Positions 4,474 through 18,706 of a stretch of 64,000 nucleotides of DNA are shown here, piece after piece; position 1 is the first letter of the stretch, and each line of letters starts with the position of its first letter. A program made the translations under genes and the position numbers. This DNA is from Paenibacillus sp. JJ-223 (GTDB taxonomy: Bacteria > Bacillota > Bacilli > Paenibacillales > Paenibacillaceae). The notes under the pieces were generated by a model. It searched no databases. It was not told the origin of the DNA and saw only the letters and a program-made list of their open reading frames with translations. Location: positions 186,001-250,000 of the forward strand of contig NZ_CAKMMP010000006.1 of assembly GCF_927798175.1 (NCBI RefSeq), in the 5' to 3' direction.

Positions 4474-4623
4474 TCGCGTCCGGACCGTGTTCGTTACGAT
4501 GGATTGCTGAACGTTCGACTTCGACTACGGCAGCAGTCCATGGTGGCAAGGTACGGCCGGCGGATAAAGACCAGCCTGTCCGCACTGCGGGCAGGCCACT
4601 CTAATGCCGGAAGGAGCATATCC

Positions 4624-5979
4624 ATGAAGCAGCAGCATGTTCCGGTGAACGTAAAACCGGAAGGAGCGAGGCAGCACCGCGTGACCGCGGCCGTGCTGTC
4701 CGTTATTTTGCAGGGACTGGGGCAGTTGTACAACGGCCAGTGGATCAAAGGACTGATTTTGATCGCGCTGGAAGCCGTAGGGCTTGCCTACCTCATTCCC
4801 CGCCTGAACCATGCGGTCTGGGGCATCTGGACCTTGGGCGAGAATACGCAGCGGTTCGTGAAGGTCAATGGATCGACCGTTCTGCAGAAAGGGGATCACT
4901 CGATCTTTTTGCTGCTGGATGGCTTGATCGTACTGTTGGTTCTGTTCGTATTTCTACTTATATATACGCTTAACGTAAGGGATGCATATTTAACGGGAAA
5001 ATGGAGGGAAGAAGGCAAACAGCCGCGATCCGCCATGAATTCTCTTCGAAGCGCGCTGGATACCCAGTTCCCGTATCTGTTCCTTGCCATTCCTGCTTTG
5101 GGTGTCCTGTTCTTCACGATCATGCCGATCTTGTTCACCATCACGCTGGCTTTCACCAACTACTCGGCTCCGGATCACATTCCTCCAGCCAAACTCGTCG
5201 ATTGGGTCGGGTTCGGCACGTTCAGCGACCTGGTCCAGTTGAAATCCTGGAGCCAGACGTTTATGGGCGTATTGGGTTGGACGGTCGTTTGGGCCGTGCT
5301 GGCCACCGTCACGACGTATTTTGGCGGCGTGTTGGTTGCGCTGCTGATTGAGCAGCGCGGCATTCGTTTTAAGAAGCTGTGGCGTACAATCTTCATTCTT
5401 CCTTATGCCATCCCGCAGATTATTTCCTTGCTCTTGATGCGCAACCTGTTCAACGGACAGTTCGGTCCGATCAATACGTACATGAGAGCGTTCGGTTTGG
5501 AAGGGCTGCCTTGGCTGACCGATCCGTTCTGGGCCAAAGTGACGGTCATCGTCGTGAACATGTGGATCGGCATCCCCGTCAGCATGGTGCTCATTTTGGG
5601 TGTGCTTACCGCCATTCCTCGTGATTTGTACGAAGCCGCCGAAGTGGACGGGGCGAGCAGCTTTCAGAAATTCCGCATCATTACGATGCCGTTCATCCTG
5701 TTTGCCACAACGCCTGTGCTGATCATGCAGTTCGCGGGCAATTTCAACAACTTCAACGTCATCTACCTGCTCACGAACGGCAACCCGCTTCGCGGCGATT
5801 ACCAGTATGCCGGGTCTACCGATTTGCTCGTGACATGGCTGTACAAACTGACGCTCGATAACAACAAGTTCAACATGGCGTCGGCGGTAGGCATCATCAT
5901 TTTCCTTATTATTGCATCGTTCTCCATTTGGAACTTCCGCCGTTCGAAATCATTCAAGGAGGAGGACATGATCCAATGA
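4624..5979 (+). CDS. ABC transporter permease, MalF/MdxF type
   Basis: The 451-residue product is the larger inner-membrane permease of the maltodextrin importer. An N-terminal region with GLGQLYNGQWIKG and two or three extra helices precedes the conserved permease core; the EAA loop is EAAEVDGASSFQKFRII near residue 338 and contacts the ATPase. The ATG at 4624 is chosen because GGAAGGAG lies just before it; the frame extends 40 codons upstream but that part is arginine-rich and has no signal. It lies 150 bases after the binding-protein gene. Its stop codon overlaps the start of the next permease (ATGA), a sign of translational coupling. Confidence 0.92.
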   Translation: MKQQHVPVNVKPEGARQHRVTAAVLSVILQGLGQLYNGQWIKGLILIALEAVGLAYLIPRLNHAVWGIWTLGENTQRFVKVNGSTVLQKGDHSIFLLLDGLIVLLVLFVFLLIYTLNVRDAYLTGKWREEGKQPRSAMNSLRSALDTQFPYLFLAIPALGVLFFTIMPILFTITLAFTNYSAPDHIPPAKLVDWVGFGTFSDLVQLKSWSQTFMGVLGWTVVWAVLATVTTYFGGVLVALLIEQRGIRFKKLWRTIFILPYAIPQIISLLLMRNLFNGQFGPINTYMRAFGLEGLPWLTDPFWAKVTVIVVNMWIGIPVSMVLILGVLTAIPRDLYEAAEVDGASSFQKFRIITMPFILFATTPVLIMQFAGNFNNFNVIYLLTNGNPLRGDYQYAGSTDLLVTWLYKLTLDNNKFNMASAVGIIIFLIIASFSIWNFRRSKSFKEEDMIQ

Positions 5980-6812
5980 AGAAACGAAACAATCCGCTGC
6001 GGCTGGTCCTCAGCTATGTCCTGCTGGTCATCATTGCCATCGTTTCGATCTATCCCGTGCTGTGGATCGTTCTCTCGTCCTTGCGCCCGGGCGCCGCGTT
6101 ATTCAGTGAAAGCCTGTGGCCGGAAGCGTTCACGCTGGCGCATTATGGTGAACTGTTCACGACCCCTTCTTTCCTGTACGGCAGATGGTACATGAATACG
6201 CTCAAAATCGCGTTCTTTACGATGATTTTCTCGACGCTGCTCGTCACGCTGGGAATGTATGCATTGTCCCGCTTCCGCTTCCGCGGGCGCAAGACCATCC
6301 TGTCCACGATGCTGATTCTGGGCATGTTCCCAAGCTTCATGAGCATGATCGCGATCTACATCATCCTGCTGCAAATTCAGCTGCTGGATACGCATGCCGC
6401 GCTGATTCTGGTGTATTCGTCGGGTGCCGTGCTGGGCGGTTTCATCGTCAAAGGGTTCTTCGATACGATTCCGCGCAGCCTGGATGAAGCGGCACGGATC
6501 GATGGAGCGAGCCATCTGCGCGTCTTCGTCAGCATCATTCTGCCGCTGTCCCGTCCGATGTTGACCTACGTGGCGCTCACCAGCTTCACGGGGGCATGGA
6601 TGGACTTTATTTTCGCCCGGCTGGTGCTGCGCACCAAAGAAAATTGGACGCTGGCCGTAGGCATGTGGGATCTGGTCAGCCGATATCAGGACAGCAACTT
6701 TACGATGTTCGCCGCGGGTGCGGTGCTGATTGCGATTCCGATCACGCTGCTCTTCGTGTTCCTGCAGCGCTTCCTGGTACAGGGGCTTACGACAGGAGCC
6801 TCCAAAGGATAA
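5976..6812 (+). CDS. ABC transporter permease, MalG/MdxG type
   Basis: The 278-residue product is the second permease of the importer, with about six membrane helices and the EAA motif EAARIDGASHLRVFVSIILP near residue 169. The start ATG overlaps the stop of the previous gene by four bases, and AAGGAGGAGG stands 9 bases upstream. It ends with LTTGASKG, close to the usual MalG end. Together with the preceding two genes it makes the membrane and binding parts of a class I carbohydrate importer. The transcript probably ends at the hairpin at 6836-6887. Confidence 0.93.
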   Translation: MKKRNNPLRLVLSYVLLVIIAIVSIYPVLWIVLSSLRPGAALFSESLWPEAFTLAHYGELFTTPSFLYGRWYMNTLKIAFFTMIFSTLLVTLGMYALSRFRFRGRKTILSTMLILGMFPSFMSMIAIYIILLQIQLLDTHAALILVYSSGAVLGGFIVKGFFDTIPRSLDEAARIDGASHLRVFVSIILPLSRPMLTYVALTSFTGAWMDFIFARLVLRTKENWTLAVGMWDLVSRYQDSNFTMFAAGAVLIAIPITLLFVFLQRFLVQGLTTGASKG

Positions 6813-6835: not shown

Positions 6836-6887
6836 GCGCTTTGATCGAAGGAATTGCACAATGACTCCTTCTTTCGGAGCGCTTTTC
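6836..6887 (+). terminator. Imperfect terminator hairpin after the sugar importer
   Basis: GCGCT...GAAGGA (from 6836) pairs with TCCTT...GGAGCGC (to 6882), with a few mismatches in the middle, followed by TTTT. It lies 24 bases after the MalG-type stop codon. Confidence 0.6.
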
Positions 6888-6943
6888 ATGCATGTCCTAT
6901 TTACGGCTGGAATGATCGATACAAACGGGAGGGAAACGAAATT

Positions 6944-8245
6944 ATGGATACTGTTCGTCCGGTGGATTCGGGCTCCGGCTCTGCGGATTTGCACCCAGGC
7001 ATGGGTACGGCTTGTCCTGCAAACGATACCGCGTCCGAACCGGCATTGCGGCACAACAAAGCTTTTCGAAGACTGCTTTACGGCTACGGCATTTCCGTCT
7101 TCGGCGATTGTTTCAACGGCATTGCCATCAGCTTGTGGGTCTTGCAGACGACGGGCAGCGCCAAGAGCATGGCCGCCGTGCAAATTTGCAACATGGCGGT
7201 CAGCTTTGTTTTCGGTTCCCTTGCAGGCACGCTGGCAGATCGCTTTGACCGTCGCACATTGATGCTGTCCTCGGATCTGTTCCGGGCTTTTATGGCCGCG
7301 ACCATTGCCGTAAGCCTGTTTGTGCTGCATGCCCCTTTTCCATTGCTGCTGCTCATGCTTGGCCTGTCGATGTTCTCCAGCTTGTTTCAGGCACCTGCCT
7401 TTTACGCTTCGGTTAGCCGCCTGGTCGGCAAGCCACATCTGCAGCAGGCTACGGGCGCAATCCATTTGGTCGACAACATTGCCCGGATCAGCGGACTTGC
7501 TGCGGCAGGAGCGGCGGTGGCGCTGATCGGCGGCTTCTATGCCATTCTCGTTACGGCAAGCACGTTTTTGCTCTCGGCGGTCTGCGTGGCGGCTGCCGGC
7601 CGTTTTCCATCCGTGGAACGGACAACGACCGCCAAAACCACCTTTGTTCAGGAGTGGAGAGGCTCCTTCGCTTATCTCTTCTCGCAGCCGCTTGTGCGCG
7701 CCATTGTTGTGCTGCAGCCGATTCTGCTGCTCTTTTTCATGTCTGCCATGATGCTCGTGCAGGTGATGGCGGTAAAGGTATGGCAAGCGAATCCGGTGCA
7801 ATTCGGATTGATCGAAACCTGCATTCCGCTCGGGTACATGCTTGGTTCTGCCGGGCTTATGGCCATGGCGGGCCGGATGAAGCACCGGGGAAGGTGGATA
7901 TTTGTTGGCCTCCTGCTGCTGGGACCGTTGTACGCGGCGTTATCCTACATCACTTCGCCGTATTGGGCTTTGCCGCTCATTGTAGCCGGCGGAGCCATGT
8001 TCGCCTGCTGCACGATGCTGCCGCAGATCATGGTTCGCGCTGAAGTGCCCGATGAACTTCAAGGGAGGGTTTATGGAGTCATGGGCACGCTCACAAGCAC
8101 GGCGCCGATCATTGGCCTATCGGTCGTGTCCGTTTGGGCGGACCGCTACGGAGCTCCGGTGGTGCTGGAAGGACTGGGAGCTCTGCTTTTGTTGACCGCG
8201 TTTGTTATGGCAGTGGCCATGAAGCCCATCCGTGCTTATAAGTAG
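6944..8245 (+). CDS. Major facilitator superfamily transporter (exporter-like)
   Basis: The 433-residue product is a 12-helix MFS protein: the N-terminal half starts with YGYGISVFGDCFNGIAISLWVLQTTGS and carries GTLADRFDRRTLM, the conserved loop between helices 2 and 3. The C-terminal half has ELQGRVYGVMGTLTSTAPIIG, typical of the MFS_3/enterobactin-exporter-like group. The ATG at 6944 is selected since GGGAGGG lies about 10 bases upstream; an earlier in-frame ATG overlaps the preceding terminator. The first 45 residues are polar and acidic, longer than usual. Substrate unknown; a drug or metabolite exporter is the best guess. Confidence 0.88.
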   Translation: MDTVRPVDSGSGSADLHPGMGTACPANDTASEPALRHNKAFRRLLYGYGISVFGDCFNGIAISLWVLQTTGSAKSMAAVQICNMAVSFVFGSLAGTLADRFDRRTLMLSSDLFRAFMAATIAVSLFVLHAPFPLLLLMLGLSMFSSLFQAPAFYASVSRLVGKPHLQQATGAIHLVDNIARISGLAAAGAAVALIGGFYAILVTASTFLLSAVCVAAAGRFPSVERTTTAKTTFVQEWRGSFAYLFSQPLVRAIVVLQPILLLFFMSAMMLVQVMAVKVWQANPVQFGLIETCIPLGYMLGSAGLMAMAGRMKHRGRWIFVGLLLLGPLYAALSYITSPYWALPLIVAGGAMFACCTMLPQIMVRAEVPDELQGRVYGVMGTLTSTAPIIGLSVVSVWADRYGAPVVLEGLGALLLLTAFVMAVAMKPIRAYK

Positions 8246-8480: not shown

Positions 8481-9614
8481 ATGGATTTTAAACCGCTTGC
8501 TTCATTTATCGACCGCATCACCGCTTGGCGTATTCCGTGGGCGGAAGTACTTGTCATGCATCGCAACGAAACGGTTTTCCGTTATCGCAACGGCTTTGCT
8601 AATTTGGAAGAGCAAACGCCCATCGGCGAAGGCGCGATCATCAACTTGTACTCCATGACCAAAATCATGACCTGCGTCGCAGCGCTTCAGCTTGTGGAGA
8701 GAGGACAAATGCTGCTTGGCGACCCGATCTCGAACTATCTGCCGGAATATGCCGAGATGACGGTCAGAAAAACTTTGCCGAACGGGGAAGTACGGCTGGA
8801 GAAAGCGACAAAAGCCATTACGGTGCGCGACCTGTTTACGATGACGGCCGGATTTTCCTATGACGTTGGAGCACCATCTATCCAGGAGGCCGTGAAGAGC
8901 ACGAACGGAACGTTGTCGACGCGTGAATTTGCGAAGGCGCTTGCGAAAGAGCCGCTGCTGTTCGAGCCCGGGACGCAGTGGAATTACAGCATGTGCCACG
9001 ATGTGCTTGGCGCTTTGATTGAAGTCGTGGATGGCAGACGGTTCGGCACATACTTAAAAGAGGAAATCACCGACCCGCTCGGCATGCACGATACGGCATT
9101 TGACCTGAATGACGAGCAGCAGGCCAGATTGATTCCGCAGTATGCGTACAATGACGAGCTTGGCAAAGCCGTTCGCATGGACGGCAACGGTTTCCGGGTA
9201 GGCACGGCGCTGGAAAGCGGGGGCGCAGGATTGTTGTCTACCGTCAGCGATTACGCGCTGTTCCTGAATGCGTTGACTGGGCGCGGCACAAGCCCGGACG
9301 GCGTACGCATCTTGTCACAGGCTTCGGTCGAACTGATGCGTACGGACCATCTGAATGATTTGACCCGAGGCGATTACTCCTGGGATCAAATGAAAGGCTA
9401 CGGCTACGGGTTAGGCGTACGGACCCATGTCTCCAAGGCCGGCAGCGGCTCCTTGAGTCCGCTGGGCGAGTTCGGCTGGAGCGGCGCTGCCGGCTGCATG
9501 GCCATCATCGATCCGGATTCGGAACTTACGGTTATGTATGCGCAGCACCTGTTGAACAGTCAGGAGCCGTACATCCAGCCTCGCTTGAGAAATATCGTTT
9601 ACGCTTGCTTATAG
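8481..9614 (+). CDS. Serine hydrolase, beta-lactamase/esterase EstB-like (PF00144)
   Basis: The 377-residue product belongs to the class C beta-lactamase-like serine hydrolases. The nucleophile motif SxxK is SMTK at residues 58-61, and the YxN-like tyrosine lies in QWNYSMCHDVLG. FTMTAGFSYD and GGAGLLSTVSDYALFLNAL are diagnostic of the esterase/penicillin-binding-protein-like branch. There is no signal peptide, so it is cytoplasmic and unlikely to be a secreted beta-lactamase. An esterase or peptidase role is probable. AAAGGGATG stands before the ATG at 8481. It is followed by a terminator shared with the convergent CGTase gene. Confidence 0.88.
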   Translation: MDFKPLASFIDRITAWRIPWAEVLVMHRNETVFRYRNGFANLEEQTPIGEGAIINLYSMTKIMTCVAALQLVERGQMLLGDPISNYLPEYAEMTVRKTLPNGEVRLEKATKAITVRDLFTMTAGFSYDVGAPSIQEAVKSTNGTLSTREFAKALAKEPLLFEPGTQWNYSMCHDVLGALIEVVDGRRFGTYLKEEITDPLGMHDTAFDLNDEQQARLIPQYAYNDELGKAVRMDGNGFRVGTALESGGAGLLSTVSDYALFLNALTGRGTSPDGVRILSQASVELMRTDHLNDLTRGDYSWDQMKGYGYGLGVRTHVSKAGSGSLSPLGEFGWSGAAGCMAIIDPDSELTVMYAQHLLNSQEPYIQPRLRNIVYACL

Positions 9615-9741: not shown

Positions 9742-11898
9742 TTATTGCCAGTTCACGTTTACGGTTGCGGTGCCGCTGGCTGGCGTGGTGAAGGTGTGAT
9801 TCGATCCGCTTTCCCATGTGACGGTAGAGCCGTTTTTCTTGAAGAACTTGAACTCGAGCGGCGTTCCGGCAGGCACGCTAACGTCGTAATACCATGTCGG
9901 ATAGGCGTGAATGACCTGGTTGAAGGTTGGCCCAACGGCGTTTGCTCCTGTGGACCAGTTGCCGAGCTCGGCAACGTTGCCGGTCAAGTACACGTTCTGG
10001 CCCAGGGATGTCGATGCATTATTGACAACGAATCGAACGGTGACCTGCTCGCCGGTCAAAATATTAAACCCGTTATAGCTGTTGCTGGTTACGCCGCCTG
10101 CGGTTACCTTCACCGCGTAATTGCCCGCTGCAACGGCAGGAACGGTAACTTTGATTTGGGTATCTTCCCACGATTGGATCGCAGATCCGCTTACGGCCGT
10201 CGTGCCGAAGTAAACGGTGCCTTTGGTTGCGCCGAAGCCGCGGCCGTCGATCGTGACGACGTTGCCGGGTTTGCCCATCATCGGTCCGACGTGCCCGATC
10301 GTCGGCGTGCTTTCGGAAGCCGTGTACTGCCACACTGCCGTCCCGCCTGCGGCCAACGTGAATGTAGGAACGCTGCCGTTGTTGGACGTAATGCTGTTGC
10401 CGTTCAGCGCGCCGCCAAGGACGTCCGTGTACGTTCCCGAAGGCAGGGACGTTGCAAGTCCGCTAATGGAGGCAGAGGACGATTGGTTGCGGTTGATCGC
10501 CACGACGGCAACGCTTTTGCCGAATTTGCGTTCATAGACGTACACGTCATTATTAATCCAGCGCTGCTGCGTCGAGCCGTAAGCGATGGCCGGATTGGAT
10601 TTGCGCAGCGGAGCCAGCTTGCTGATCACGTTGAATGCCGTCGTTGTTTTGGAGAACGATGGCATTTTGGCGCGGTTGTTCGGATCGCCGTTTCCGGTCA
10701 GGTATTGTTCAGTGCCGTAATAGATGGCAGGCACGCCGCGGGATGTCAGCGTGAAGGCCAAGGCTTGTTCCAGCTGCCGGTTGTTGACCGCGCTTGTTTT
10801 GAAACGGTCCATGTCATGGTTATCGATAAAGGTCACCTGGTCATTGACTTGCGTGTAGTCTGCTGCTGTGCTGCTGATCATGGAATCCAGTGCATGCATG
10901 TTCGACGTGTTGTCGCGGAACACGTTCCGCACTTCGGCATTGAAGCGGAAATCAAGCAGGCTCATGCCTGAAGTGTTCGCGAATTTGGTGTTGTCCGCAT
11001 CCGCAGCAGAAGAGCCGAGGAACCACTCACCGAACGTGAATACAGGCTGATGGCTGTAAATGCCCGACATCCAGCTCTTTTGCCAGCCTTCCGGCATGTG
11101 TTTGACCGCATCCACGCGGATGCCGTCGACGCCCATGTCAAGCCAGAGGTTGATGGCGTCTTTGAAGTATTTGTCAATGGTCGCATTGTTGTGGTTCAAG
11201 TCGGCGAGATCATAAAGGTTTTTGTAGATTCCGTTCTCGAGGGAAGAGAAGTCCGAGCCGCCGTTATGGTGGAAGTAACCGTTGGTGTCGTTGGTGTAAC
11301 CGCCAAGGAGCGTGCCGTTGTCATACAGCTTGCCGTTCTCGGCGAACGAGGTATCGGTCTCCATGGCCGGTGACGTATGGTTTGGAGCAAAGTCGATGAC
11401 GATTTTGATGCCTTTGGCATGAGCGGTCTGAATAAGGTTCTGGAAGTCGGTCATGGAACCGAAGTACGGGTTGGTTTTCTTGAAATCCCGCGCCCAGTAT
11501 CCATGGTAGGAAGTGTTGTTGACGCCGGAGTAATTGACGACGGCATGGATGTTTTCTACCGGCTGCGAAATCCAGAGCGCCGTGATGCCCAGGTCCGTGA
11601 AATAGTTGTCGTTGATTTTGTTGATCAATCCCTGCCAGTCCCCGCCGCAGTACAATTTCAGGTTGGTACAGCTGGCATCGTACGCTGCTCCGGAAGGGTT
11701 GTTGGAGGGATCGCCGTCCAGAAAGCGGTCGGTGAATACCTGATAGATGACGTCCGTGCTGAAATTCTGCTTGTTCGTTACGGCAGTGTCGGGGTCTGCA
11801 AGCACGGAAGCCGCCGGCAGGAAGGGGAGTGCGCTCCCGGCCAGCAAGCCGAGGGTTAACGTGGTGCTGAGAATGATGCGTTTGGTCACATTCAACAT
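9742..11898 (-). CDS. cgt: Cyclomaltodextrin glucanotransferase (CGTase), secreted
   Basis: The 718-residue precursor has a Sec signal peptide with cleavage expected near Ala34 and the five-domain CGTase layout: A/B barrel (about 35-440), C, D (IPT/TIG fold with [15 protein letters not shown]) and E, a C-terminal starch-binding CBM20 ([20 protein letters not shown] to the end). Catalytic residues are Asp263 (GIRVDAVKH), Glu291 (FTFGEWFLG) and Asp362 (FIDNHDMD), 34 above the numbering of the Bacillus circulans enzyme. Tyr229 matches the central aromatic residue (Tyr195) around which the glucan chain circularises, which separates CGTases from alpha-amylases. The ATG at 11898 has GGGTGG upstream; the open frame 30 codons earlier is not used. 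It converts starch to cyclodextrins outside the cell, feeding the importer at 3175-6812. Confidence 0.97.
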
Positions 11899-11948
11899 GG
11901 TAATCCACCCTTCGCGATTAGAATATGTTATTATGTAATCCGTGGAAG

Positions 11949-11962
11949 TAAAAACGCTTACA
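11949..11962 (-). promoter_or_regulatory. Candidate CcpA cre site upstream of the CGTase gene
   Basis: On the minus strand TGTAAGCGTTTTTA matches 13 of 14 cre consensus positions (TGWAANCGNTNWCA). It ends about 50 bases before the CGTase start codon, within the likely promoter, so glucose repression of CGTase is expected. Confidence 0.7.
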
Positions 11963-12018
11963 ATTGCGGACGGCCAATCATTTGCCAACCATGGACGGGT
12001 CTACCTCCTTCCTGCATG

Positions 12019-12056
12019 CAAAAACCCCGGCATCTCCTGCTGGAGTTACCGGGGTT
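12019..12056 (-). terminator. Minus-strand terminator upstream of the CGTase promoter
   Basis: AACCCCGG (12023-12030) pairs with CCGGGGTT (12049-12056), with an inner CTCC/GGAG helix. Read on the minus strand it is followed by TTTTTGC. It would stop antisense transcripts coming from the right before the CGTase promoter. Confidence 0.6.
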
Positions 12057-12060
12057 GTCC

Positions 12061-12075
12061 TAGACCTTAGGTCTA
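12061..12075. promoter_or_regulatory. Perfect 7-1-7 palindrome TAGACCTTAGGTCTA
   Basis: This 15-base palindrome is symmetrical around one T and lies in the 470-base gap between the divergent CGTase and esterase genes. The format suits a dimeric regulator. No regulator gene is adjacent, and the palindrome was not seen elsewhere in the window. Confidence 0.4.
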
Positions 12076-12176
12076 AAAAGCATGGCCCTCGAGTTGTACA
12101 TCACACCGTAATCATAAAAAACGGCAATGGGTTTGTCAATAACTTTTATTTTAGGTTTATTTTTCTTGTTTTCGTA

Positions 12177-12205: not shown

Positions 12206-12261
12206 AATCGCAGAATCCACAATACAAGGGCCATGCATTTCGGAAACGATGATCCGATCCG

Positions 12262-12295
12262 AAACAACCCCGTCTCCTTCGAGGCGGGGTTGTTT
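12262..12295 (+). other. Strong leader hairpin before the acyl-transfer operon
   Basis: AAACAACCCCG (12262-12272) pairs perfectly with CGGGGTTGTTT (12285-12295). It ends in TTGTTT and so is terminator-like, yet lies between the candidate promoter and the first gene of the operon. It could be an attenuator, or the end of an upstream transcript. Confidence 0.5.
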
Positions 12296-12368
12296 GTCGT
12301 TGCAGGCAGCAGCGTAGAGAGGCGTTTCATTATTGCAAGGCATGATGAGCTGAGGGGAGCGATGATCC

Positions 12369-13754
12369 GTGATGAGTTCATTGGAGACAAGGTCGGTTAT
12401 CGAATGTTTGAGCGAATTCAAGGCAACGCGGCTGGGCAACAGCCGAAATATCCATGTGTATCTGCCTCCGGGATATCATGAGCATACCGATAAAAGGTAT
12501 CCGGTCGTTTATATGCATGCAGGCCAGCGCGCTTTCGGCCTCTCCAAGCCGGGCCAGGAAACGTGGCAGATGGATGTGGCGGCAGACCGCCTGATCGGTT
12601 TGGGGCTCATGGAGGAGCTGATTATTGTGGGCATCTCCCATGTTCGCCCGGTTACGCACAATGAGTTTTACCATTATGCTGCGCCGGTCCGCGAAGCTGT
12701 AGACGTGGGATGCTCGGGGCTGCTGTACGAACATTTCATCGTGCATGAGCTCAAGCCGTTCATTGACCGGCGATATCGGACGTTGACGGAGCCGGAGCAT
12801 ACGGGGATGATCGGATCATCCGCAGCCGCATTGTGCACGTTCCACATCGGCATGCGCCATCCGGACGTTTTTGGCAAGCTGATGATGTTGTCGCCGTTTT
12901 TTTATGACGTGCAGTTGGATGCGAGTTCCCCGGGACGGCTGAAAGAAGAGCCGATGATTCGGCTTCCCGCAGGAAAACCAGACGTACGGATGTGGATGGA
13001 TATCGGGGATATGGAAGGTCTGTTCCTTCCAAGCCAAATTAGAGAGGTTGTCGACCAACTTCTGAACCTTGGTTACGTGGCTGGCAAGGACCTCATTTAC
13101 CTGGAACAACCCGATGCCGGCCATCAGGAAGCCGATTGGGCCGAACGCGTACATCTTCCTTTGCTGTGCATGTTTGGCAAAAAAGGAAACCCGGTTTCCC
13201 TCGAACTCAAGGGCAGAAGTGTTCTAGGGTTGAAAGGAGATATGAAATGCCGAATTAATGCTCTGCTCCGCTATGACAACGGCGTTAAGGTCAGTCTGCT
13301 GGAAGGGACATACATTTCCGAACAACCTGACGTGCTCGAGGTACTGCCGGATGGAACGCTGATTCCCGTCGCTACCGGCAGGGCGGTCGTTCGGCTTCAG
13401 TTCGGGGAATTGACGGCGACCAAGGCGTACACCGTCGTGGAGGAGCTTTCCGGTCACGTTCTCATCTGCCTGAGTGCCCAATCGCCGTCTCGCGAACCTG
13501 CGGAAGACACCATATACGGCGGCATGGGCATGAAGCTGAAACATGTCGGAGACGGACATTACGAAGGATGCTTCGAAGTTCCGCGGGACAGCGGTTTCCG
13601 GTTCCGGTTTACGCGTGGTTTCCGCCGATTTGAGACCGACCCGGATGGTCGGCCGATGCCCAATCGCGTCTTCCGGGCCACGCATCCGCAGTCTCTCCAT
13701 TATACGATCCGTTCCTGGGGCGACAGCCCGGCCAGAAACGAAACGAGGAGGTAA
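12369..13754 (+). CDS. Esterase-fold alpha/beta hydrolase with C-terminal carbohydrate-binding-like domain
   Basis: The 461-residue product starts with an esterase D/enterochelin-esterase-like domain (about 1-280): SRNIHVYLPPGYHEHTDKRY, PVVYMHAGQ and a nucleophile elbow in GMIGSSAAALCTFH, whose first Ser of GSSA is the likely nucleophile; the late His is in DAGHQEADW. A middle Ig-like segment (about 285-365) follows. The last 90 residues resemble the CBM-like domain seen on such esterases, with FRFTRGFRRFETDPDG and PNRVF. No signal peptide, so it is cytoplasmic. GTG at 12369 and ATG at 12372 are both possible after GGGGAGC. Four bases separate it from the BtrH-like gene, so a role in the same pathway, such as releasing or hydrolysing an acyl ester, is likely. 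Confidence 0.8.
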   Translation: MMSSLETRSVIECLSEFKATRLGNSRNIHVYLPPGYHEHTDKRYPVVYMHAGQRAFGLSKPGQETWQMDVAADRLIGLGLMEELIIVGISHVRPVTHNEFYHYAAPVREAVDVGCSGLLYEHFIVHELKPFIDRRYRTLTEPEHTGMIGSSAAALCTFHIGMRHPDVFGKLMMLSPFFYDVQLDASSPGRLKEEPMIRLPAGKPDVRMWMDIGDMEGLFLPSQIREVVDQLLNLGYVAGKDLIYLEQPDAGHQEADWAERVHLPLLCMFGKKGNPVSLELKGRSVLGLKGDMKCRINALLRYDNGVKVSLLEGTYISEQPDVLEVLPDGTLIPVATGRAVVRLQFGELTATKAYTVVEELSGHVLICLSAQSPSREPAEDTIYGGMGMKLKHVGDGHYEGCFEVPRDSGFRFRFTRGFRRFETDPDGRPMPNRVFRATHPQSLHYTIRSWGDSPARNETRR

Positions 13755-13758
13755 ACCG

Positions 13759-15324
13759 ATGTCATCCTTACGGCATGTTCAGCCACTGATGGATATTCCG
13801 TTTTATTATCCCTGCCATTTTCCGCTGATTCATGAGGTTTTGCGGCGCCAGGGCTGCCAGAGCAGCCTTGGCCTTCTGGCGGCCAGCCGATTGTTTACCC
13901 TTCCCTCGTGTTCGGACACGGGGCTGGTCAAGCCTTATTTTCACAAGCTGGATTACGAGGATGCCGTCTGGAGCATGGGGGAGCAGCGCGAAATGGGCAG
14001 TTTCGAGGAAGGGCTTGCCGCCATTCGTGAGCGCGTGGGAGAAGGTGAATTGTTCCTCGCAACGGGTTCGAGCTACCATTTGCCGTATGACGAGAACTTT
14101 CGGAATCCGGAGTATATCCATAAACATCTAAGGGAGGGTTCCCGCCTGCATCTGGTGGACCACTGGCTGGCCGTGTGCGATATCGGGGAACGGCATGTGG
14201 ACGTGTATGATCCGGTCCCCTCCAAATATAAGGGGGCGGTCTCGCTTTCGGCCTTTCGCGATTTCTGGAAAGGGCACAAGGCGATGCCCGAGCTGGCGTC
14301 AGCCAAGCGAAAGGAAGAGCTGAGAACCTACGGAACGATGGAGGTTCGGGCCGCGGGCCAGCTGGATGATGACGGGTATCGAGAGGTGCTGCGCGCAGCC
14401 CTGGCTACGCAAATTCACGAGTTCCTGGCGGCCAGGCAGGTGAGGCAAGGGGAACGGAACTATTACTTTGGACAAGCCGTCACCGTAGAGCTGCTGCGCA
14501 CGCTCCATATGGAAGGGAAAGAAGACGAAGGCGGGGCACGTTCCCGCGTTCAAGGGGAATCCGGGAATGAACGTGCACACCATTCTGTCTTCCGGAATGG
14601 GCAGCAGGGGGCGTTCGCTGCAATGTCTGAGGTTAACCTTTCCGGTGATTGGAAATCCAGTAATGCTGGTGTTTCCCGGCTACCGGGCCTATTGTTCGAT
14701 ATGCGATGGAGCCGGTATTTTTTCAGAGATTTACTGCTGGAAGCGGCTCGCGTGTTAGGCTCGCCGTACGACGCTTATCTTGAGGCCTGGCAGGGCCTGA
14801 TCTTGCGTTGGGAACGCAGTCACAAGCTGCTGATGGCCAGGCTCGCAAAGCGTGATTCCGGTTGGAACGATGAGCTCAGTGGGGCCATCGGGCAACTGGC
14901 GAACGATGAATGGGCCTGGTACGAGAAGATGCAATCCATCCATGGCAGCGAATCCCGCTTTGTTCAGCGCGCATTTGCCGGGAATGAAAAGGCGAATTCG
15001 GCGGAGGCGAAGCGGGAAGAAACGCTGGCCCGCATCGTTCTGGAGAGCTGTCATGAACTGAATGCATATGGACGCGGCGGCATCCCGGTGGAGCTTGGAC
15101 TGCATGCTCCGCTCTATGGCAGGAACGGCCGGTTGGATTCGCTTGGTTTGGTGTCGTTATTAGCCGTCGTGGAACAGGAGGTCGAGGATCGATACGGCAT
15201 ATCGGTCGCACTGACGGAGATGGCGGCTGCTTCGATGCCTGAAAGTCCTTACCGCACGGTCGGTTCGCTGGTGGGTTACCTGGAGGGCAAACTGCGTGCG
15301 CAGCGGGAAGGAGTGGAACCATGA
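13759..15324 (+). CDS. BtrH-like acyltransferase fused to an acyl carrier protein domain
   Basis: The 521-residue product appears to hold two activities. The N-terminal 200 residues look like the BtrH N-terminal domain (papain-like fold; BtrH moves an acyl group from carrier protein BtrI to ribostamycin): an early Cys in FYYPCHFPL (Cys19), His135 in DHWLAVC and Asp151 in VDVYDPVPSKY would form a Cys-His-Asp triad. A helical middle of about 230 residues follows. The last 75 residues look like an acyl carrier domain: RLDSLGLVSLLAVVEQEVEDRYG, with Ser461 as the probable phosphopantetheine site. The ATG at 13759 follows AGGAGG; 216 earlier in-frame bases overlap the esterase gene. Its TGA overlaps the ligase start. 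Assignment is by motif, so the BtrH link is a strong inference, not proof. Confidence 0.72.
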   Translation: MSSLRHVQPLMDIPFYYPCHFPLIHEVLRRQGCQSSLGLLAASRLFTLPSCSDTGLVKPYFHKLDYEDAVWSMGEQREMGSFEEGLAAIRERVGEGELFLATGSSYHLPYDENFRNPEYIHKHLREGSRLHLVDHWLAVCDIGERHVDVYDPVPSKYKGAVSLSAFRDFWKGHKAMPELASAKRKEELRTYGTMEVRAAGQLDDDGYREVLRAALATQIHEFLAARQVRQGERNYYFGQAVTVELLRTLHMEGKEDEGGARSRVQGESGNERAHHSVFRNGQQGAFAAMSEVNLSGDWKSSNAGVSRLPGLLFDMRWSRYFFRDLLLEAARVLGSPYDAYLEAWQGLILRWERSHKLLMARLAKRDSGWNDELSGAIGQLANDEWAWYEKMQSIHGSESRFVQRAFAGNEKANSAEAKREETLARIVLESCHELNAYGRGGIPVELGLHAPLYGRNGRLDSLGLVSLLAVVEQEVEDRYGISVALTEMAAASMPESPYRTVGSLVGYLEGKLRAQREGVEP

Positions 15325-16844
15325 TCGAAACGTTACTGCGGCGATTCGAGGGATGGGGCTCCGCCCCGGCCATGGTATGGCAGAATGACGGTTACAGCTA
15401 CGGATGGCTGCGCGGAGAGGTACGCAGGATGAACCGCCTGATCGGCAATGCCGGCATGGCGGGCTGCGTCGTTACGCTGGAGACAGACTATTCTCCCCAT
15501 GCCGCTGCCGCTTTGCTGGCTCTGCTGGAGCAGCGCTGCATCGTTATTCCGCTGGCTCCGGACCTGGTTCGGAACAAGCGGGAGGAGTATATGGATTTGG
15601 CTGGAGCGGAATGGCGAATCGTGGCCAGGCGGGAGAAACACTCCGATACTGATGGGTATGGGGCCGACGTTGATGATGTAGGTGACACTTTATCGGAGGG
15701 GTTGCTTTGGAGTGCGGACAAGCTTCGTTCCGTGCCTGACGAAGATCGGTGTACGGCAACGTTAAGCGATGCCGTGCCTGGCGGTCTGGTGGCCTTAAGC
15801 GTAAAGCGATTCGAGGCGGACGGATTGCCGCCGCTATTAACCGAACTTCGTCAGCAGCAGGTCGGCGGTCTGGTCATTTTTTCTTCCGGTTCGACGGGAC
15901 GAAGCAAGGCTGCCGTGCATCGCGCCGATCGGCTGCTGCAGCGGTTTCAAAGGCAGGGCCGCCCGCTGCGGACGATTCCTTTCATGCGTTTTGACCATAT
16001 CGGCGGTTTCAATACGCTGCTGCAATCGCTGGCCAGCGGCGGCTGCCTGTGCATGATCCGCGAGCGATCGCCGGGGGAGGTGTGCAGAACGATCGAGCGG
16101 CATCGGGTGCAGGCCTTGCCCGTATCGCCGACGTTTATGAACCTGCTCCTGCTCAGCGGTGCGTACCGGGACTTTGATCTGTCCAGTCTGGAAGTGGTGT
16201 CGTATGGGTCTGAGGTGATGTCACAGGCGCTGCTCGAAGCATGGAACAGGGCGTTTCCTCACATTCGGACGGTTCAAGCTTACGGGATGTCCGAGCTCGG
16301 CATTTTGCCGACGCGCTCCAAAGCGTCGGGCTCCCTGTTGTTTGCCGTACGGGACGGGGAAGTGCAGTATCGCGTGGTGGACGGGCTGCTGGAAATTCGC
16401 ACGGCAACGGCCATGCTCGGATATTTAAACGCGCCGTCGCCGTTTACCGAAGACGGTTGGCTGCGCACAGGAGATGCTGCCGTGCTGGAAGGGGAGTATC
16501 TCCGCATTCTGGGCCGCGATTCCGAGATCATCAATGTAGGCGGCCGCAAGGTCTATCCGGCAGAGGTGGAGGGCGTGCTGGAGCAGATGGAGGTCATTGA
16601 AGTGGCGGTCGTTTGCGGCGAACACAGCGGCATCACCGGCCAGCGTGTAACGGTCACCGTGCAGACAAGCCGGGAGATGCCCCTCGCCGAGCTGCGCCGG
16701 ATGATCTGGGATTATTGCCGCGAACGCCTGCCGGATTACAAAATTCCGCAAAAGATCATCTTGGCGAAGGACGGCCTGACGAGCCCGCGCATGAAAAAGG
16801 TAAGGCAGCCCCTTGCCGTCTCGCCAGAACAAATCGAAACATAA
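15321..16844 (+). CDS. AMP-forming acyl ligase (ANL superfamily)
   Basis: The 507-residue product carries the ANL core motifs in order: P-loop VIFSSGSTGRSKAAVH (185-200), VQAYGMSELG (A5), GWLRTGD (A7), GRDSEIINVGGRKVYPAEVE (hinge and A8) and a C-terminal SPRMKK with the catalytic lysine. It would activate a carboxylic acid with ATP and pass it to a thiol. Since the start overlaps the stop of the carrier-containing gene (ATGA), the obvious acceptor is the phosphopantetheine arm on that protein. The acid is unknown. It is shorter and more divergent than housekeeping acyl-CoA synthetases in its first 180 residues. It ends the operon, and a terminator follows 32 bases later. Confidence 0.88.
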   Translation: MIETLLRRFEGWGSAPAMVWQNDGYSYGWLRGEVRRMNRLIGNAGMAGCVVTLETDYSPHAAAALLALLEQRCIVIPLAPDLVRNKREEYMDLAGAEWRIVARREKHSDTDGYGADVDDVGDTLSEGLLWSADKLRSVPDEDRCTATLSDAVPGGLVALSVKRFEADGLPPLLTELRQQQVGGLVIFSSGSTGRSKAAVHRADRLLQRFQRQGRPLRTIPFMRFDHIGGFNTLLQSLASGGCLCMIRERSPGEVCRTIERHRVQALPVSPTFMNLLLLSGAYRDFDLSSLEVVSYGSEVMSQALLEAWNRAFPHIRTVQAYGMSELGILPTRSKASGSLLFAVRDGEVQYRVVDGLLEIRTATAMLGYLNAPSPFTEDGWLRTGDAAVLEGEYLRILGRDSEIINVGGRKVYPAEVEGVLEQMEVIEVAVVCGEHSGITGQRVTVTVQTSREMPLAELRRMIWDYCRERLPDYKIPQKIILAKDGLTSPRMKKVRQPLAVSPEQIET

Positions 16845-16951: not shown

Positions 16952-18706
16952 CTAGACTTCAAGTTTGAGCAGGCGGAAATCAAGCCCTTCCAACGCTATA
17001 TCCAGCGTCGACGTTTCCGAGGTCAGCACTTCGCCGCTAAATGCATCGCGCCAGCTTGCTTCTTCCGGCATGGGCAATTGCAGCACCCGAGGCGACTCGG
17101 CGGCATTCATCAGCAGGCGGAAATGTTCGTGGCTCCCGTCATCGGTGCGTTCGATTATGATTGCGGCATCTTTTTGGGCGGCGTGCACGATGCGCCAATG
17201 GGAGCCGCGCAGCGCCGCATGGGTTTTGCGCAGCGTGATGATCCGCGTGTAGAAGTCGAGCAGTTCGCGGTTTTGCCGGGTTTCGTCCCATTCCATGCAT
17301 TTCCGGCATCCCGGATCGTAGCCGCCTTCCAACCCGACTTCGTCGCCGTAGTAGATGCATGGTACTCCCGGGTAGGTCAACAGCAGCAGGACGGCAAGCT
17401 TCATGCGCCGAACGTCGCCCTCGCAGACCGTCAAGAGGCGCGGCGTGTCATGGCTGCCCAGCAGATTGAAGGCCGCCTCCGTGACGGATTGCGGATAAGC
17501 CGCGAGCAGATTTCCGATCTCTCCGGCGAAGGCAGCTCCGTCTAATTTGCCATGGACCGCATAATCCAGCACCGAATTGGTAAAAGGGTAGTTCATGACT
17601 GCATCGAACTGGTCCCCTTGCAGCCACATGATGGAATCGTGCCAGATCTCGCCGAGGATATACGCGTCCGGCTTGATGCTTTTGACCGTATCCCGGAACT
17701 CGCGCCAGAAGCGGTGATCCACTTCGTTCGCCACGTCCAGCCTCCATCCGTCGATGCCGATTTCCTGCACCCAATACCGGGCGACCTCAAGAAGGTAGGC
17801 TTTGACTTCGGGGTGCTCGGTGTTGAGCTTAGGCATGATCGGTTCGAAGGCAAACGTATCGTACGTCGGAATGCCGTCCTCGATCCGCAGCGGCCATTCG
17901 CGCACATGGAACCATTCGGCGTATGGCGAAGCCTGGCCGTTTTTCATTACATCGACGAAAGGCGGGAAGTCTCTTCCCGAATGGTTGAATACCGCATCGA
18001 GCACCACCCGAATGCCGCGGGCATGACATGCATCCACGAGCTCCTTAAGCTTGGCATTGGTGCCGAAATGAGGATCGACCCTCAAATAATCGGCCGTATT
18101 GTATTTGTGGTTGGTGCTGGCCTCGAACACCGGAGTAAAGTAAATGGCGTTTACGCCGAGCTGGTTCAAATGGTCGAGGTGGTCGATCACTCCCTGCAAA
18201 TCTCCGCCGAAGAAATTGGTCGGGGTCGGTTCGCCGCCCCAAGGCTCCGCATCTTCGGGGCTGATGGACGGGTCGCCGTTCGCGAAACGCTCCGGAAAAA
18301 TCTGATAAAAGACAGCGTCCTTCACCCATGCAGGCGCCTGGAAAATGTCCGCCGGATTCAGGAAAGGAAAGTCGTAAAATTCCAGCGGGTTTTCGGGCAG
18401 CTCGGTTTCGAATCCCCGTTCGGTCATCCAAATCCGTTCGCCGTCCTGCTCCAGTTCGAACCCGTAGCGCAATCTTCGATATGGAGGCTGCACTTCGATT
18501 TGCCAGTAATCGAACAGCTCGTCGCTGGCGAATTTGCGCATCGGAAGGGTACGGGCCGTGCGTTCCCAAGCGTATTTGTCCCCGATGACGGCGGATACCT
18601 GATCCAGATCGTCACGTCCGGTTCGCAGGCGGATATGCAGGGTGTTGCGATCATAAGCATAAGACCAGTTCAAGCGTGCACGATGATAAATAGCTTCAAG
18701 CTGCAT
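16952..18706 (-). CDS. Neopullulanase/cyclomaltodextrinase-type GH13 glycosidase
   Basis: The 584-residue product is a GH13 subfamily 20-like enzyme: an N-terminal beta domain of about 120 residues (involved in dimer formation in the family), a TIM barrel and a C-terminal domain. Catalytic residues are Asp324 (GWRLDVANE), Glu353 (ILGEIWHD) and Asp420 (LLGSHDTPR); the region IV-V signatures [10 protein letters not shown] and [10 protein letters not shown] are intact. There is no signal peptide, so it acts inside the cell on imported cyclodextrins and maltooligosaccharides, cutting alpha-1,4 and perhaps alpha-1,6 bonds. AAGGAGTG precedes the ATG. With the CGTase and the importer it completes an extracellular-cyclise, import, intracellular-hydrolyse route. 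Cyclomaltodextrinase, maltogenic amylase and neopullulanase cannot be separated by sequence alone. Confidence 0.93.

Follow-up and report, generated by a model that had tools for sequence, protein, structure and literature searches.

Why should genes apparently for loading, carrying and transferring an acyl group lie among the starch and cyclodextrin genes of a Paenibacillus? The question is raised by three adjoining genes of the soil bacterium Paenibacillus sp. JJ-223 (GCF_927798175.1, NZ_CAKMMP010000006.1, positions 186,001-250,000 of the forward strand; this whole stretch of 64,000 nucleotides is termed the window), which encode an esterase (EST), a middle protein (MID) and an AMP-forming ligase (LIG) and are together called the trio. 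Enzymes that handle carrier-bound acyl groups are known from several pathways: BtrH is an ACP:aminoglycoside acyltransferase (PMC10318531), CcbD charges its cysteine with an acyl group from a carrier and hands that group on to an amino sugar (PMC12945683), and CtaG is proposed to work from one carrier protein to another in closthioamide synthesis (PMC6772006). An initial annotation, made from the window alone, had described the trio as a self-contained operon in which a BtrH-like transferase is joined to a carrier, and had considered a sugar-based acceptor conceivable.

Organization of the locus

The three open reading frames were found exactly where the initial annotation had placed them, with the spacing it gave: a gap of four bases separates the esterase from the middle gene, and the stop codon of the latter shares a 4-base ATGA overlap with the ligase start (Table 1). 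The setting between two starch genes on the opposite strand was likewise recovered, the neighbours being a cyclodextrin glucanotransferase (CGTase) and a cyclomaltodextrinase/neopullulanase-type enzyme. The upstream secreted enzyme is a true CGTase, matched by 1CGT_A across the whole mature length and composed of GH13, Alpha-amylase_C, TIG and CBM20 domains, and malE lies just 5' of the malF- and malG-type permease genes. A CGTase, importer genes and a cyclomaltodextrinase-type enzyme are thus found together, and the locus therefore qualifies as a CM-CD cyclodextrin pathway, a type defined by the joint presence of CGTase, importer and cyclodextrin-degrading enzyme (PMC8760340). Between the MFS transporter gene and the CGTase gene, window positions 8481-9614 hold a beta-lactamase-fold serine hydrolase (6.9e-61) that is confined to this species among the loci compared.

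Table 1. Features of the putative acyl-transfer and cyclodextrin locus, in window coordinates
Feature	Position	Strand	Basis
malF- and malG-type permease genes, cyclo/maltodextrin importer	malF ~4504-5976, malG ~5928-6809	+	Likeness to sugar ABC permeases by inspection; clusters kept in all syntenic loci
MFS transporter (EntS-like)	6854..8245, start probably near 6935	+	MFS_1 6.3e-26, MFS_3 8.7e-22
CGTase	9742..11988, start probably ATG at 11901	-	1CGT_A 1409 bits
RNA leader copy 5' of CGTase, with AGGGCCATGC, P1 stem and terminator-like hairpin	12017..12097	-	Model R1 70.9 bits; covariation; fold z -3.8
RNA leader copy 5' of trio	12219..12297	+	Model R1 75.6 bits; fold z -3.65
EST, esterase-fold serine hydrolase	12369..13754, GTG start	+	PF00756 4.4e-21; Fes/CE1 structure match
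MID, papain-like transferase, helical and C-terminal carrier domains in one chain	13759..15324	+	BtrH_N in relatives; AlphaFold2 model
Catalytic Cys19 codon (MID)	13813..13815	+	Invariant residue
His135 codon (MID)	14161..14163	+	Invariant residue
Asp151 codon (MID)	14209..14211	+	Invariant residue
Carrier domain of MID, residues 417-514	15007..15300	+	ACP matches Z 8-8.8; stand-alone homologues
Ser461 codon (MID), predicted phosphopantetheine site	15139..15141	+	Invariant; opens helix 461-479
LIG, AMP-forming acyl ligase	15321..16844	+	AMP-binding 1.9e-31 (Pfam); SSGSTGxSK motif and C-terminal Lys conserved
Cyclomaltodextrinase/neopullulanase-type enzyme	16952..18706	-	GH13 1e-81; cyclomaltodextrinase model 3.1e-106, below cut-off

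A transferase and a carrier in one chain

MID appears to unite a papain-like, carrier-dependent acyl transferase domain with an ACP-like domain. Its AlphaFold2 model (mean pLDDT 81.7) comprises papain-like, helical and C-terminal helical domains, and the first ~400 residues of the predicted structure match the solved structures of AziU3 (Z 19.1), CcbD (Z 17.7) and CtaG (Z 16.6) well above unrelated entries, with a shared fold over ~280-318 residues at a sequence identity to AziU3 and CtaG of 11-15%. The Cys19-His135-Asp151 arrangement reported in the initial annotation is invariant across 24 sequences, comprising orthologues and carrier-less relatives at 23-28% identity, so that MID possesses the Cys-His-acid catalytic residues of AziU3/CcbD/CtaG-type transferases; those reported for CcbD are Cys-His-Glu (PMC12945683), whereas MID has Cys-His-Asp. 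An insert of ~43 residues (~258-303) in the window protein, found only in this species, coincides with a low-confidence stretch of the model.

The designation of this domain as BtrH-like holds in part. A search of 13759-15324 for BtrH_N and PP-binding, proposed as a check, left the window protein below the cut-off for both and with no Pfam match, while 19 of 24 aligned relatives match BtrH_N (best 2.2e-7, taken by E-value rather than by curated cut-off). BtrH is a relative in sequence; among solved structures, however, AziU3, CcbD and CtaG come nearest, and a profile comparison of MID with the one clear BtrH_N protein of its own genome is weak (probability 13%). Among 399 genomes drawn from the class, the fusion was seen in Paenibacillaceae alone; carrier-less relatives occur also in two other families. 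Some of these carrier-less relatives (L107 9713-12340, L110, L113, L114) have ABC-transporter and ligase-like genes as cluster neighbours.

For the C-terminal domain, comparison of residues 411-518 with solved structures returns acyl carrier proteins at Z 8-8.8, a score that taken alone is weak for a helical bundle. Other observations agree with it: Ser461 is invariant both in close orthologues and in stand-alone relatives of the domain, it opens the long helix 461-479 of the model and so occupies the start of helix II in a predicted four-helix, ACP-type fold, the stand-alone relatives occur beside ligases of the same subfamily as LIG, and the best sequence matches are ACPs. The PP-binding profile gives the window domain 14.2 bits (0.054) against a cut-off of 20.8, with 0.0038 for the best relative, and the domain is therefore termed ACP-like rather than a member of Pfam PP-binding. 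The earlier claim that carrier and transferase form one chain is upheld by the transferase fold match and the ACP-like domain with its invariant Ser461 in a single protein. Two PPTase-family genes are present in the genome.

Ligase and esterase

The annotation of LIG as an AMP-forming ligase whose gene overlaps the middle stop codon is supported by the Pfam AMP-binding match and the ATGA overlap. An attempt to read its substrate from the A4 motif (FDHIGG) was dropped: the Asp lies one alignment column off the substrate Asp of NRPSs, and no substrate is therefore assigned. Other members of the LIG subfamily (41-48% identity) have stand-alone carriers (L099-L102, L126) or glycan genes (L098) as neighbours, and some of them belong to PKS-like clusters; these stand-alone carriers are of the same type as the MID carrier domain.

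EST is an esterase-fold protein, as annotated, by its PF00756 match; a Big-like domain scores sub-threshold in Pfam. The predicted model (pLDDT 88.6) contains alpha/beta hydrolase, Ig-like and C-terminal beta domains, the catalytic domain resembling the enterobactin esterase Fes (Z 26.7) and CE1 feruloyl esterases (Z ~25), and Ser151 and His252 are invariant in the alignment. The carbohydrate-binding-like domain formerly attributed to EST was not borne out: a C-terminal beta domain is predicted, with no family assigned to it. In two genomes, extra esterase paralogues adjoin the MFS gene (L118 2447-3613; L121 509-2913).

Distribution of the trio and its co-occurrence with an MFS gene

The middle gene occurs in 36 of 75 genus genomes, flanked by esterase and ligase genes in all 30 genus loci compared, and the fusion is present in 13 further family genomes outside the genus, again with esterase and ligase beside it. 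The initial annotation had let the operon stand or fall by a neighbourhood survey, and in that survey the three genes were contiguous in every examined genome with the fusion (36 genus and 13 family genomes); the trio is a unit. Three of the 13, P. curdlanolyticus and two more (L109, L112, L115), carry it without adjoining starch genes, and broken copies in G005 and G054 may be assembly errors.

The MFS gene between importer and CGTase is present in exactly the same 36 genus genomes as the trio, from which it is separated by the CGTase gene. CGTase is found in 44 genus genomes, of which eight have neither trio nor MFS gene and yet retain the importer, CGTase and cyclomaltodextrinase genes; a tree of the retained genes puts these joint absences at four points (about four lineages). 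Fisher tests of the association take no account of relatedness among the genomes and serve as a guide to scale only. Outside the genus, the MFS gene is present in 11 of 13 module genomes as against 2 of 12 compared non-module genomes (the two being leader genomes without the trio), so that the link is strong, not absolute. The MFS gene is part of the module; among named models its product matches EntS (2.5e-27, below cut-off). A PhyH-type oxygenase gene lies 3' of the ligase in ~9 loci outside the genus (two confirmed by Pfam, the others by sequence likeness), and no PhyH homologue was found in the genus at E 1e-30. The notion of a self-contained operon finds no support: the trio goes with an MFS gene, outside the genus often with PhyH, and has a leader in common with CGTase.

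A shared RNA leader

CGTase and trio diverge from a single intergenic region, in which alignment places one leader element on each strand; the trio copy ends 71 bases ahead of the esterase start. In the element, AGGGCYATGY precedes the variable stem P1, which is followed by ACAACCCCG...CGGGGTTGTT, a terminator-like hairpin. Across 38 sequences, eight of the nine P1 base pairs vary in both partners, and the covariation score of 0.458, compared with 0.206 in shuffles (0/500), drops when partners are slid. Within the genus, a covariance model finds two copies in every genome that has the module, one for CGTase and one for the trio, and a single copy in every genome with CGTase alone, with weak matches only elsewhere; in the family Paenibacillaceae it matches 151 of 396 genomes. 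Outside the genus, the leader lies 5' of the esterase in 13/13 module genomes, including those whose trio lies outside the starch locus, and of 41 further family copies examined most precede CGTase (29), the others cyclomaltodextrinase (2), large GH13 (2), CBM21-type (2) and AAC(3)-type (4) genes, with 2 unclear, the CBM21 and AAC(3) assignments having been profile-checked on one member each (copies outside the window, L168-L207). A shorter form of the leader stands before genes of the aminoglycoside 3-N-acetyltransferase type in L195, L196, L198 and L199 (PF02522 1.2e-84, L196).

A covarying helix followed by a terminator-like hairpin before functionally related genes is the arrangement of a cis-regulatory RNA attenuator, a role the element would plausibly fill; no Rfam family matches at gathering score, the best match in a lax search having E 0.63. 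An antiterminator could form between GGG in the first motif and CCC in the hairpin; both are invariant, and covariation therefore cannot test this pairing. Since the leader precedes CGTase, the trio and other starch genes, the link to starch is real and regulatory: the starch or sugar connection suggested in the initial annotation survives as co-regulation through a common leader, while a sugar acceptor stays putative. Strict matches to a CcpA cre consensus in the intergenic region were sporadic only, and this candidate was set aside.

Proposed function and competing explanations

We consider it reasonably probable that the trio and the MFS transporter constitute a load-carry-transfer-export module expressed with the cyclodextrin and starch enzymes, its chemistry being read from folds and invariant residues. 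LIG would adenylate a carboxylic acid and load it on the phosphopantetheine arm at Ser461 of MID; Cys19 of the same chain would take over the acyl group as a thioester and hand it to an acceptor amine, or possibly hydroxyl, in the manner of CcbD, whose carrier is supplied in trans; trimming, release or further transfer of the product may fall to the Fes/CE1-like hydrolase; and the EntS-like MFS transporter would export it. The leader with its terminator-like hairpin, common to CGTase, may tie expression to the starch/cyclodextrin regulon, and the bacterium thus probably makes and exports an acyl compound while feeding on starch. Against the model stand two points that it leaves unexplained, the acceptor and why an esterase is needed; the two trio genomes outside the genus that lack the MFS gene and the two leader genomes that have it without the trio; and the PP-binding and BtrH_N scores of the window protein. 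The AAC(3)-type genes behind the leader also imply that its signal may be an inhibitor or other metabolite rather than starch itself.

Several components invite comparison with a reduced enterobactin-style system, in which an EntE-like ligase, a carrier, an EntS-like exporter and a Fes-like esterase would yield an exported siderophore-like or catechol-type ester or amide. EntS is indeed the match of the MFS protein among named models, Fes is nearest to the esterase domain and fecBCD lies nearby in several genomes; however, fecBCD is kept in genomes without the module, for which reason a link to iron transport was rejected, CE1 feruloyl esterases are nearly as close as Fes, no catechol or iron genes were seen in the module or locus, and the leader is common to starch genes; this reading is improbable. 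Slightly more credible, though still unlikely, is acyl decoration of a maltodextrin, cyclodextrin or surface glycan, with EST as the matching deacylase: the leader common to CGTase and other starch genes, the CE1 fold of EST and the carrier-associated ligase relatives that neighbour glycan genes (L098, L126) would fit a sugar acceptor, but those enzymes of the MID fold whose reactions were considered form amides (PMC12945683), cyclodextrins have no amine and the module is without glycan genes. There is also a slim chance that the system is protective, acylating and exporting a sugar-like inhibitor with an amine, such as one of the acarbose type, that is taken up by the maltodextrin importer. 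The presence of importer, CGTase and cyclomaltodextrinase at one locus, the drug-efflux type of the MFS protein and the leader before AAC(3)-type genes in four genomes would agree with such a role, itself putative, but a ligase/carrier route is costly for detoxification and the esterase would have no explanation.

An extension of the favoured load-carry-transfer-export reading, offered as speculation that we regard as rather doubtful, is that starch and cyclodextrin enzymes are under the control of an RNA attenuator found across Paenibacillaceae, and that through it the self-loading carrier-transferase makes an exported, novel acyl conjugate only during starch feeding, for instance an inhibitor or a protectant used when competing for starch.

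Relation to known systems

Transferase, carrier, ligase, hydrolase and exporter are all of already known kinds; as far as the open literature searched shows, the novel points are a transferase of this type fused to a single carrier, the position of this fusion in a CGTase regulon and the leader RNA. No description of CGTase attenuation, of Paenibacillus leader RNAs or of carrier-fused BtrH/CcbD-like proteins was found in the open-access literature. A donor carrier and transferase in one chain would offer a compact system for studies of CcbD/CtaG-type acyl transfer; the module represents a probable biosynthetic addition to cyclodextrin metabolism, a pathway with industrial use that is mostly regarded as catabolic; and a leader without an Rfam match provides a testable handle on CGTase regulation and the timing of compound synthesis.

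In butirosin synthesis the activating enzyme differs from this ligase type, and no aminoglycoside genes were seen in the locus. BtrH, with its ACP BtrI, resembles MID through the BtrH_N matches of MID relatives and differs in having a separate carrier. The lincosamide condensation enzymes CcbD/LmbD share the predicted fold over MID residues 8-396 and the catalytic cysteine (Cys19) and, by analogy for MID, carrier-dependent transfer to an amine (PMC12945683), but obtain the carrier domain from another protein; the carriers of CtaG (closthioamide) and AziU3 (azinomycin), both like MID in fold, are separate as well. Among CM-CD clusters, the passages of PMC8760340 on the described cym, cgt, cyc, cld, thm and thb clusters mention neither an acyl-transfer module nor a leader RNA; CGTase, importer and cyclodextrin-degrading enzyme are held in common, and the JJ-223 locus adds both. 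A precedent for fusion in cis is provided by related bacteria (L103-L106), in which three-module NRPSs, with carriers in the same chain, terminate in a domain related to the MID transferase (E 2e-21), possibly a chain-releasing domain; there the transferase-type domain ends a protein of 3,300 residues, whereas in MID it precedes a single carrier.
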